From an uncultured Paracoccus sp. (GTDB lineage Bacteria > Pseudomonadota > Alphaproteobacteria > Rhodobacterales > Rhodobacteraceae): a stretch of DNA of 64,000 nt. The notes below the pieces were generated by a model that ran no database searches, had not been told where the DNA came from, and worked only from the letters and a program-made list of their open reading frames with translations. A program made the translations under genes and the position numbers. Shown here in pieces: positions 7,061 to 14,458 of the stretch. The DNA is taken from positions 11,977 through 75,976 of the forward strand of contig CAKTBJ010000009.1 in assembly GCA_934533075.1 (NCBI GenBank), in the 5' to 3' direction. Each line of letters opens with the position of its first letter. The stretch's first letter is position 1.

Positions 7061-8140
<1,080 letters not shown>

Positions 8141-8540
8141 TGCGGCCTCCATCAGCATCCGGCCGCCCGGATCGGCCGCGCCGGCGCCCCGAGCATGGCG
8201 CCGGGGAGCCGGCTTCGCAAGGCGGCGGCGATCCATGCAGATGCAGCCACAGGCGCGCACATTTCCGCCGCATCGCAGCATTTGCTGGGTTTTACGTTGC
8301 GTCATTTGCATAACTGATCCGTGACCAGCGGCACCGTGTCGCAATTTCAAGACACGGTTAGCCTTATTTATCGGTGGTTATGCGGAAATTTCGGCAAAAT
8401 CAGCCATGCACAAGACGCATGCCTGATTTGCTTGCTTGTCCATTGTGCATCCGCAGCAATCGCGCCAAATATTGGACAACGAAACGGCGCGGGACCCAAA
8501 ACCGGGCAGCGCGCCAGAGAGCAGATGAATGAGGTTGGCC
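8141..8540. other. Divergent control region between mrp and the DUF1127 gene
   Basis: This 400-base gap is AT-richer at 8280-8480. It holds two inverted repeats: ACCGTGTC (8333-8340) with GACACGGT (8351-8358) around a 10-base spacer, and TTGTCCA (8436-8442) with TGGACAA (8473-8479). The second lies just upstream of the DUF1127 gene. In Rhodobacter sphaeroides the equivalent gene is driven by RpoH-type sigma factors; I could not place a clear RpoH promoter here by eye. Confidence 0.45.
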
Positions 8541-8759
8541 ATGTCGGTCCTCCATACCACCACCACGCCCGTCCGGGGCGGTTTCTTCGCCCGCATCGCC
8601 GAGGCGTTCCTTTCGGCCCGCGAGGCCCGCGCCCGGCGCGTCATCTACCAGCAGACCCTGCGCGAGCTGCGCAGCCTGTCGGATCGCGACCTTGCCGACC
8701 TGGGGATCAACCCCAGCGCCGTCGAGACCGCCGCCTATAACGCGACCTACGGCCGCTGA
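8541..8759 (+). CDS. ccaF1: DUF1127 small basic protein, CcaF1-like
   Basis: A 72-residue protein whose C-terminal half is a DUF1127 domain (QTLRELRSLSDRDLADLGIN), preceded by an Arg-rich helix. DUF1127 proteins are small RNA-associated proteins of alphaproteobacteria. In Rhodobacter sphaeroides the homologue CcaF1 (RSP_6037) lies directly upstream of, and is co-transcribed with, the CcsR stress sRNAs and promotes their maturation. The same layout is seen here: ten anti-SD hairpins begin 12 bases after the stop codon. I chose the ATG at 8541 because GAGG lies seven bases upstream; an ATG at 8529 is the alternative. The symbol is given by synteny and is therefore moderately certain. Confidence 0.82.
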   Translation: MSVLHTTTTPVRGGFFARIAEAFLSAREARARRVIYQQTLRELRSLSDRDLADLGINPSAVETAAYNATYGR

Positions 8760-8771
8760 GGCATTCCATTC

Positions 8772-8838
8772 CCGCGCCCCACTCCTCCCTGGGGGCGCGG
8801 GTCGGGCGACACCCTTTCCTCCTCCCTGGGGTGTCGCC
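8772..8838 (+). ncRNA. CcsR-like sRNA unit 1 (two hairpins)
   Basis: Hairpin 1 pairs 8772-8780 with 8792-8800 around the loop ACTCCTCCCTG. Hairpin 2 pairs GGCGACACCC (8805-8814) with GGGTGTCGCC (8829-8838) around the loop TTTCCTCCTCCCTG. Both loops expose an anti-Shine-Dalgarno CTCCTCCC, the hallmark of CcsR/cuckoo RNAs. A further hairpin without this motif (8847-8862, CGGGCC/GGCCCG) separates it from unit 2. Confidence 0.8.
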
Positions 8839-8869
8839 GTAAACATCGGGCCGAACGGCCCGGACATGC

Positions 8870-8934
8870 CCGGCCCTCTCCTCCTCCCCGAGGGCCGGCG
8901 CAGCGGTGGCGGCACCTCCTCCCGCCTCCACCGC
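8870..8934 (+). ncRNA. CcsR-like sRNA unit 2 (two hairpins)
   Basis: Hairpin 3 pairs CCGGCCCTC (8870-8878) with GAGGGCCGG (8890-8898) around TCCTCCTCCCC. Hairpin 4 pairs GCGGTGG (8903-8909) with CCACCGC (8928-8934), plus an inner CGG/CCG, leaving a loop that contains CCTCCTCC. The unit is closely similar to unit 4, from which it is about 148 bases away. Confidence 0.78.
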
Positions 8935-8941
8935 GACCATG

Positions 8942-9005
8942 CGCGGCCCTTCCTCCTCCCTGAGGGTCGCGGCTTGGCGGTGCCCTCTCCTCCCCGGGCG
9001 CCGCC
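8942..9005 (+). ncRNA. CcsR-like sRNA unit 3 (two hairpins)
   Basis: Hairpin 5 pairs 8942-8950 with 8963-8971 (one G-U pair) around TCCTCCTCCCTG. Hairpin 6 pairs GGCGGTGCCC (8976-8985) with GGGCGCCGCC (8996-9005, one G-U pair) around TCTCCTCCCC. It follows unit 2 after only seven bases (GACCATG). Confidence 0.78.
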
Positions 9006-9017
9006 AGAAATTCGGAT

Positions 9018-9078
9018 GCCGGCCTCTCCTCCTCCCCGAGGCCCGGCAGCGGTGGCGGCCTCCTCCCGCCTCCACCGC
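9018..9078 (+). ncRNA. CcsR-like sRNA unit 4 (two hairpins)
   Basis: Hairpin 7 pairs GCCGGCCTC (9018-9026) with GAGGCCCGGC (9038-9047, one bulge) around TCCTCCTCCCC. Hairpin 8 pairs GCGGTGG (9049-9055) with CCACCGC (9072-9078) around a loop with CCTCCTCC. It is nearly a copy of unit 2, which indicates tandem duplication. Confidence 0.78.
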
Positions 9079-9085
9079 GACCATA

Positions 9086-9160
9086 CGCGGCCCCTCCTCC
9101 TCCCTGGGCCTGCGTTGCGGCGGCGGTGCCCCTCCTCCTCCCTGGGCGCCGCCGCCTTTT
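9086..9160 (+). ncRNA. CcsR-like sRNA unit 5 with terminal terminator
   Basis: Hairpin 9 pairs 9086-9093 with 9106-9114 (one bulged T) around CTCCTCCTCCCT. Hairpin 10 is the strongest: GGCGGCGGTGCCC (9119-9131) pairs with GGGCGCCGCCGCC (9144-9156, one G-U) around CTCCTCCTCCCT and is followed by TTTT (9157-9160). It therefore doubles as the intrinsic terminator of the whole array. rlmJ starts 70 bases further on. Confidence 0.8.
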
Positions 9161-9230
9161 CATTGCCCGCGCCCCTGTCACCGGCCCAAGGCCTGCGCTA
9201 TGCTGGCGGGAAATCAATGGATTGCGGGCG

Positions 9231-10016
9231 ATGCTCAGCTATCAGCACATCTATCACGCCGGGAACCTGGCCGATCTGCACAAGCATGCGCTGCTGGCCT
9301 GGATGCTGGCGCGCATGGCGGAAAAGCCCAAACCCTTCCGCTATATGGAAACCCATGCCGGGCGCGGGGTCTACGACCTGCACGACGAGCATGCCCGCCG
9401 CACCGGCGAGGCCCGCGCCGGCATCCTGCGCGCCGAGGCCGAGGGCTGGCTGCCCCCCGACCACCCCTTGCCGCGCGCCATCGCCTCGGTGCGCTCGCGG
9501 TTCGGGGATACGGCCTATCCGGGCAGCCCGGCGATCGCGGTGGCGCTGCTGCCGCGCGACTGCCCGATGGACCTGGCCGAACTGCACCCGCAGGAATGCG
9601 CGGCGCTGCGCGCGGTGATGCCCTCGCGGGTGCGGGTGCATCAGCGCGACGGGTTCGAGATGGCGAATGCGCTGTGCCCGCCGATGCCGCGGCGGGGCAT
9701 GCTGCTGATCGACCCCAGCTATGAGGTCAAGGACGATTACGACCGCCTGCCCGGCCTGATCGGGCGCATCGCGCACAAATGGAACGTGGGGGTGATCGCG
9801 CTGTGGTATCCGATCCTGACGGTGCCCCGGCACGCCCCGATGCTGGCCGGCATGGCGGGCGCGCATCCCGGCCTGCTGGTCTCCGAAGTGCGCTTTGCCC
9901 CGGCGCGGGAGGGGCATGGCATGATCGGCTCCGGCATGGCGGTGATCAATCCGCCCTGGGGGCTGGCCGAGGAAGCGGCCCGGATCGAGGCGCTGTTCGC
10001 CGCCCGCGCCACCTGA
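9231..10016 (+). CDS. rlmJ: 23S rRNA (adenine2030-N6)-methyltransferase RlmJ
   Basis: RlmJ methylates N6 of A2030 in 23S rRNA. The 261-residue protein begins MLSYQHIYHAGNLADLHKH, matching the conserved YxHxxHAGNxAD start of the family, and has the catalytic (N/D)PP(Y/F)-type motif as DPSYE at about 161-165. The substitution of the second Pro by Ser is common in RlmJ. I chose the ATG at 9231 because it aligns with the family start; the frame extends upstream to 9126 through the last sRNA hairpin. No operon partner is visible. Confidence 0.95.
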   Translation: MLSYQHIYHAGNLADLHKHALLAWMLARMAEKPKPFRYMETHAGRGVYDLHDEHARRTGEARAGILRAEAEGWLPPDHPLPRAIASVRSRFGDTAYPGSPAIAVALLPRDCPMDLAELHPQECAALRAVMPSRVRVHQRDGFEMANALCPPMPRRGMLLIDPSYEVKDDYDRLPGLIGRIAHKWNVGVIALWYPILTVPRHAPMLAGMAGAHPGLLVSEVRFAPAREGHGMIGSGMAVINPPWGLAEEAARIEALFAARAT

Positions 10017-10091: not shown

Positions 10092-10332
10092 TCAGGCGAC
10101 AGCCTTGCGGCGGCGCACCACCGCCAGCCCGCCAAACGCGGCCAACAGCACCCCGACCGCCGGCAGCGGCACCGGCAAAGCCGTGCCGGAAACTTCCAGC
10201 ATCGCCGATTTCAGCATGAAACCGTCCGCCCCGAAGGTTTCGCTGAAGGAAAGCGGCGCGGCCCCGGTCAGGGCGGAAAGCCATCGTCGCGGCAAGCGCA
10301 AGCCCCGCGACCGAGAGAGGTTTCCGAACCAT
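10092..10332 (-). pseudogene. Frameshifted remnant of a VPLPA-CTERM sorted protein
   Basis: A typical signal peptide, MVRKPLSVAGLALAATMA, is encoded from the ATG at 10332. After it, a one-base frame change is needed to continue as LSALTGAAPLSFSETF and on to the C-terminal tail LPVPLPAVGVLLAAFGGLAV followed by RRRKAVA. That tail is the VPLPA-type exosortase sorting signal (motif, hydrophobic helix, basic end). The mature part would be only about 30 residues, far shorter than usual, so both an internal deletion and a frameshift seem to have occurred. An alternative is two overlapping short frames without function. Confidence 0.6.
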
Positions 10333-10340
10333 CCGTCCAT

Positions 10341-14354: not shown

Positions 14355-14415
14355 CGACCCCTTGAAACCCCGCCCCGCCGCGCTATGTGGGTGCGGTGGA
14401 CCGGGCCCCTCTGGC

Positions 14416-14458
14416 GATGCACCCGCATCGTGATGTCGGCCACGATGCGGCATGCATC
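14416..14458 (+). promoter_or_regulatory. Strong hairpin in the terC leader
   Basis: CGCATCGTG (14424-14432) pairs perfectly with CACGATGCG (14441-14449) around an eight-base loop, and the flanks GATGC (14416-14420) and GCATC (14454-14458) extend it. It lies 65 bases before the terC start. TerC genes elsewhere are often under manganese riboswitches, but the yybP-ykoY core was not found, so the role is open: operator, attenuator or repeat. Confidence 0.4.

Follow-up and report, generated by a model that had tools for sequence, protein, structure and literature searches.

A conserved ccaF1-CcsR-type locus with ten anti-Shine-Dalgarno hairpins, and the possible control and independence of such arrays in its relatives

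The window studied here, by which we mean the whole 64,000-nucleotide stretch of DNA that was analysed, holds a real and conserved locus in which a short DUF1127 gene is followed by ten tandem hairpins with anti-Shine-Dalgarno (anti-SD) loops. On account of its gene order, its loops and its sub-threshold matches to the Rfam models CcsR1 and ar14, it is assigned to the ccaF1-CcsR (cuckoo, CIN1-type) loci, here in a Rhodobacterales bacterium near Paracoccus, and it probably works by the steps of transcription, cutting and silencing described below. The array is one more case of a known locus type and is of ordinary size; the main interest lies in the comparative by-products of the analysis, above all a PhaR-type operator in relatives and arrays that stand without ccaF1.

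The array, its neighbours and its known counterparts

The ccaF1-type DUF1127 gene (8541-8759, forward strand) encodes 72 amino acids (PF06568, 40.6 bits against a cut-off of 23.3, E 2.1e-10) and has a GAGG before it at 8531-8534. The array begins 11 nt after the gene on the same strand, and the short gene thus lies directly upstream of the hairpins, as expected of a ccaF1-CcsR (CIN1) locus. The neighbours are a divergent mrp/apbC-type ATPase gene (7061-8155, reverse strand, from its predicted start; PF10609) and, downstream, rlmJ (9231-10016, forward strand; PF04378), which gives the order mrp, DUF1127 gene, array, rlmJ; both neighbours are conserved in relatives. Mrp, CcaF1 and RlmJ occur together in 102 of the 177 fetched loci with any match, a set in which overlapping stretches were counted repeatedly and in which many stretches, their lengths being different, are too short for both neighbours. 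One more locus has these three with MetZ, and among the rest are 43 with CcaF1 and Mrp, 13 with CcaF1 and RlmJ, and 14 with CcaF1 alone. A tree of RlmJ puts the window, on a long branch of unsure placement, in a group (100/83) with five rows that come from four further genomes of the family, apart from the Paracoccus rows; the window's best RlmJ identity is 68%, to locus L192. Two other features of the window were seen along the way: a terC RNA at 14393-14447 (RF03067, 54.1 bits, above the gathering score), and an 82-residue open reading frame without a Pfam match at 10092-10340 on the reverse strand, whose hydrophobic C-terminal stretch followed by RRRK resembles an exosortase sorting signal.

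The sequence-only reading had described ten hairpins with anti-SD loops behind the DUF1127 gene. A hairpin finder set to loops that carry CCTCC returned exactly ten, from 8771 to 9156; in 300 dinucleotide-preserving shuffles of 8760-9170 the mean was 0.48 and the maximum 4. CTCCTCC is present in every one of the ten loops and seven contain the full cuckoo nonamer CCTCCTCCC, as read by eye from the finder output, so the loops carry the motif CCUCCUCCC of the cuckoo RNAs. When 8765-9162 is folded to minimum free energy, the same ten hairpins form (z -9.05 relative to 100 shuffles), and their loops are unpaired apart from a single additional pair within loop 1. Finder and fold together place the hairpins in five pairs on the forward strand, all within 4 bases of where they had been proposed: 8771-8801 and 8805-8838 (pair 1), 8867-8902 and 8903-8934 (pair 2), 8942-8971 and 8974-9007 (pair 3), 9017-9048 and 9049-9078 (pair 4), and 9085-9115 and 9119-9156 (pair 5, for which an alignment and covariation are also at hand). 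Between pairs 1 and 2 the free fold adds a further hairpin (8847-8862), which does not carry the anti-SD motif. As had also been noted, the last hairpin runs into TTTT (9157-9160), and 9119-9160 has the shape of an intrinsic terminator with an anti-SD loop; a T-rich tail after the last hairpin is found in many relatives as well, and we read the hairpin and its tail as the predicted Rho-independent terminator of the locus. Within the array there is a 48-nt direct repeat on the forward strand (8915-8962 and 9059-9106, 96% identical, 144 nt apart). Repeated blocks in locus L002 are spaced by about 180 nt, and from the spacing in the two loci we infer growth by block duplication, of which the 48-nt repeat suggests itself as the trace.

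It is worth stating how the array fares against the covariance models, since this was one of the checks that had been proposed for it. The array has no Rfam match at gathering score. In a permissive search, with E-values computed for 851 bases, CcsR1 (RF02791) and ar14 (RF02344) gave the best matches, the former at 9079-9160 (pair 5, 37.3 bits), 8764-8845 (pair 1, 33.9 bits) and 8862-8936 (pair 2, 28.5 bits), the latter at 8765-8867 (pair 1, 44.7 bits) and 8936-9054 (pair 3, 42.6 bits). The best CcsR1 score (E 2.3e-7) misses its gathering threshold of 65.3 bits and the best ar14 score misses that of 58.8. The arrays of eight relatives likewise stay under both cut-offs (best CcsR1 53.8, best ar14 58.0), and weak matches to the array also come from unrelated families whose loops are C-rich, namely 6C RNA (34.6 bits, E 0.011) and Scr3202 (27.1 bits, E 0.13). 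The assignment to the ccaF1-CcsR type with five two-hairpin units is borne out by gene content, synteny, loop motif and the covariation of the last pair, together with these sub-threshold matches.

In the part of the field's literature that was searched, nothing joined CcsR to Paracoccus, and nothing was found on "CIN1 loci" or RF02791. A cuckoo paper of 2015 is said to have surveyed many bacteria, and such arrays may already be listed there. Rfam names CcsR1 after the motif that the window's loops share, and the statement that a CcsR RNA has two hairpins comes from the sequence-only reading and from the shape of the Rfam model. Among the closest counterparts is the ccaF1-CcsR1-4 locus of Rhodobacter sphaeroides, in which, according to the available text, a DUF1127 gene likewise shares an operon with the small RNAs that come after it, and a terminator closes the operon (PMC10253847); the difference is that it yields four RNAs where the window has five pairs, and that the window scores below the gathering threshold. 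The cuckoo RNA family (Reinkensmeier and Giegerich 2015, as cited in PMC4504443) shares with the window a conserved loop motif on variable stems, but its RNAs are described there as having two to four hairpins each, whereas the window has ten in one array, which is taken to be cut into pairs. An older survey is reported to have termed the same loop motif anti-Shine-Dalgarno (PMC3927594). The ar14 RNAs of Sinorhizobium meliloti, among them NfeR1, have the same anti-SD loops; unlike the window's array, NfeR1 is a single three-hairpin RNA with an RpoD promoter, and neither a tandem array nor ccaF1 figures in the available part of its description (PMC10746234).

Covariation and array size among relatives

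The claim that the stems keep pairing by compensatory changes holds for the last pair, which is the pair that was aligned. The alignment was made with MAFFT over 50 sequences, being the window and 49 of 73 retained arrays (at least four hairpins, a T-rich tail and a close last pair). Judged by the window's structure, 94.9% of cells are paired, a measure biased in its favour because the reference structure was taken from the window's own row; changes on both sides occur in 13 of the 21 base pairs, and double-change cells number 55 against 10.7 in shuffles. None of the five measures used was reached by any of 500 shuffles, and when the partner is slid out of register the pairing falls to 35-60%. 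RNAalifold's own consensus has only 14 pairs, 9 of them with double changes. The terminal stems are thus variable yet paired, as in the cuckoo family, and the covarying stems in related genomes whose lack was to speak against the sequence-only reading are present in this pair. The aligned terminal pairs also differ in length by single bases.

These results bear on the thought that the array is some other kind of repetitive DNA, be it a mobile repeat, a run of chance terminators or a coding repeat. There are direct repeats inside the array, long open reading frames that cross it, and copies on plasmids, all of which would suit such an origin. But the open reading frames are long because of the high G+C content, and the single-base length differences argue against a kept reading frame; the terminal pair has compensatory changes, and ten hairpins stand in tandem on one strand, while the finder's matches elsewhere in the window are scattered (14 on the forward strand and 8 on the reverse). 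This explanation, already disfavoured, is one to which we give hardly any weight.

The array had also been called expanded, and this is true only in comparison with R. sphaeroides. Of 125 Paracoccus-genus genomes, 107 have a match to the window's DUF1127 protein. The 103 arrays of the genus with mrp or rlmJ nearby have 4-20 hairpins with a median of 10; 46 are longer than the window's, 42 shorter and 15 equal, where individual counts may be off since the finder overlooks weak stems. Included in the 103 is the plasmid copy L120; left out are L010, L012 and L013, which are not Paracoccus, and L067, a duplicate of L046. Ten further DUF1127 loci of the genus, in stretches without mrp or rlmJ, were tallied apart; seven carry 4-5 hairpins, and the range over all ten is 0-5. 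Outside the genus, the finder gives 1-17 hairpins in a family sample of 29 loci, the single hairpin being that of L175, which is without the motif, and 7-19 per array in a small genus of seven genomes. The longest arrays seen were those of L137 (genome G069, 20 hairpins) and L196 (genome G520, 19 hairpins). Expansion as a special trait was therefore dropped, ten being the median of the 103, and the suggestion of selection for loop copy number finds no support in this range.

Promoter-like element and proposed working

Upstream of ccaF1 there is a promoter-like element on the forward strand at 8443-8471, made of TTGTGC (8443-8448), 15 nt, and GCCAAATA (8464-8471), whose pattern is conserved in relatives. 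The form TTG.GC-N16..18-CAT.TT occurs in 94 of 110 upstream regions from the Paracoccus genus and in 17 of 29 from the family sample, and in none of the shuffles; it was found in none of the six upstream regions from the genus of G425. The window itself deviates, with CAAATA in place of CATnTT. The promoter determinants reported for RpoH of R. sphaeroides are TTG at -35, A-12 and T-9 (PMC3441632), and by our own alignment the TTG of the relatives and the A and T of their -10 fit these, with the spacing off by one base in some. An element that may be of the RpoHI/RpoHII type is in this sense conserved in relatives; the window's -10 departs from it.

The ccaF1-CcsR locus would then work as follows. 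Transcription would start from a promoter near 8443-8471, probably an RpoH-type one, and run through ccaF1 and the array as a single RNA up to the last hairpin, which would terminate it. RNase E, under the influence of CcaF1, would cut this transcript into the mRNA of ccaF1 and five RNAs, each of two hairpins and about 65-75 nt, whose single-stranded CUCCUCC loops may pair with the purine-rich Shine-Dalgarno regions of mRNAs and so lower translation under stress. These steps are likely by analogy with work on R. sphaeroides and S. meliloti, and they are set beside what the present analysis observed: the array, its predicted fold, the last-pair covariation, the gene context and the promoter-like element conserved in relatives. 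In R. sphaeroides, CcsR is reported to be cotranscribed with ccaF1 from an RpoHI/RpoHII promoter and processed by RNase E (PMC10253847), and the CcsR RNAs to bind Hfq, with the FlhR mRNA as a target (PMC8307010); the overall picture given in the available texts is of one stress transcript, CcaF1-influenced maturation by RNase E, and RNAs that act on mRNAs (PMC10253847, PMC8307010, PMC8625941). For NfeR1, the CCUCCUCCC loops are reported to occlude the ribosome-binding site of ntrB and so silence it (PMC10746234), and the same action by pairing at the translation start would be expected of the window's RNAs.

A rather less probable alternative is that the array serves as a dosage-tuned sponge, in which numerous similar loops soak up a common partner, whether Hfq, an RNase, CcaF1 or Shine-Dalgarno regions at large, instead of silencing single mRNAs. 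That the loops are alike while the stems vary, that copy number ranges from 4 to 20 among relatives, and that CcsR RNAs are reported to bind Hfq (PMC8307010) would all agree with it. However, ten copies are average, such wide variation fits duplication and loss without selection just as well, and single-target action is reported both for NfeR1 on ntrB (PMC10746234) and for CcsR on the FlhR mRNA (PMC8307010).

Candidate PhaR sites and arrays without ccaF1

The promoters of relatives have a second conserved element. The dyad CTGC-N3-GCAG occurs in 106 of 146 upstream regions, the window's not among them: in 89 of 110 from the Paracoccus genus and 17 of 29 from the family sample (shuffle expectation 0.65 and 0.05), and in none of six from the genus of G425. 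Where it accompanies the promoter element, it ends 17 or 18 nt before the TTG in 90 of 92 cases. At about this place the window has an inverted repeat, CATGC-N7-GCATG (8405-8421, forward strand). PhaR was considered as the regulator. The PhaR consensus reported for Bradyrhizobium, TGCRNYGCASMA (PMC6201568), was rejected as the site, since it fits only 1 of the 146 upstream regions. The reading was reinstated because the site of R. sphaeroides PhaR, a regulator that binds PHB granules, is given as CTGCNNNGCAG (PMC12542648, PMC3206438), which is the conserved dyad; PhaR of P. denitrificans is said in the same sources to bind a TGC-rich region over the -35 and -10 of phaR. A promoter with a PhaR site, as proposed for the relatives' arrays, is also known from the MmgR RNA of S. 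meliloti, which is repressed by PhaR/AniA in the available account (PMC12542648). MmgR is not known to be related in sequence, the window is without CTGC-N3-GCAG, and the relatives' sites are candidates.

A longer, 15-bp form of the dyad, TGCTGC-N3-GCAGCA, was searched for in eight Paracoccus-genus genomes picked by hand from the 125. It has 37 sites (1-7 in each genome), against 1 in all for a backward control pattern. By coordinates, it lies in the promoter of six of the eight main array loci and of two secondary arrays of G008, and just upstream of phaR (PF07879) in four of the eight genomes; three of these four sites are 149-162 nt before a phasin match. The remaining 25 of the 37 are at neither arrays nor phasin-phaR genes; G008, G064, G087 and G094 have no such site near phaR, and G064 and G087 have none at the array. 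As common descent alone can preserve a site, such counts over relatives are not independent. The same dyad can be seen upstream of arrays in, for example, L242, L237 and L239, and at the phasin-phaR loci L244, L246, L248 and L249. The secondary arrays of G008 (L069, L070) are, as counted by the finder, three-hairpin clusters without a DUF1127-query match, each with the dyad upstream.

The other by-product concerns arrays that have parted from the gene. No match to the DUF1127 query was found in 18 Paracoccus-genus genomes. Sixteen of these have rlmJ, and in 15 of the sixteen, loops with the motif lie upstream of rlmJ behind a slightly looser promoter pattern (L192, L211-L224). A sixteenth locus cut by a contig end (L225) and one without an array beside rlmJ (L193) are not among the 15. 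Each of the 15 has 3-8 motif loops, exactly three in seven loci, and the first loop comes 49-113 nt after the -35, which is too close to leave room for the gene, so that ccaF1 is gone from this place. A PF06568 search of three of the 18 genomes (G063, G013, G021) gave one match in each, elsewhere in the genome. A single clade of the RlmJ tree (100/98) takes in 14 of the 15, with the ccaF1-bearing L124 nested inside it, and L221 stands apart. All 15, like the window, are without CTGC-N3-GCAG but keep a TGC-N4-GCA in the spacer, which in the window is at 8446-8455, inside the promoter-like element. These loci weigh against the idea that the hairpins act mainly in cis on the ccaF1 mRNA, by affecting its stability, by attenuation or by pairing with the ribosome-binding site of that mRNA. 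The array does lie directly 3' of ccaF1 and ends in a terminator shape, and ccaF1 has the GAGG noted above; yet array and promoter persist without the gene in 15 loci, and we regard a mainly cis-acting role as improbable.

Copies are also found on plasmids. Plasmid pAK2 of Paracoccus sp. AK26 (NZ_CP041044.1, L227) has a DUF1127 gene with five hairpins, and pCBA4604-01 of P. jeotgali (NZ_CP025584.1, L228, L120) one with eight. The latter copy (L120, identical to the named record) agrees with the chromosomal L119 at 99.2% over 930 nt, a shared stretch that stops about 79 nt into rlmJ; one of the two is therefore a copy of the other. A weak match also came from a plasmid of Salipiger profundus.

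Taken together, we would tentatively propose, at somewhat less than even confidence, that across a large part of the Paracoccus genus and in certain other Rhodobacteraceae the array is both a PhaR target and a cassette independent of ccaF1, which in some species may have survived the loss of the gene and which may also have been duplicated onto plasmids. In the promoter layout that goes with PhaR, the putative operator would be placed 17-18 nt upstream of the -35, and another dyad, TGC-N4-GCA, between -35 and -10; of these two, the window itself has the second one only. A PhaR-type operator in the relatives' promoters would tie anti-SD RNAs to the carbon-storage state of the cell, and, if the proposal is true, the state of the storage polymer PHB would, besides stress, govern the anti-SD loop dose. 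The range of 4-20 hairpins among relatives is a natural dosage series, and the natural arrays without ccaF1 make it a testable question whether CcaF1 is needed to mature RNAs of the CcsR type.
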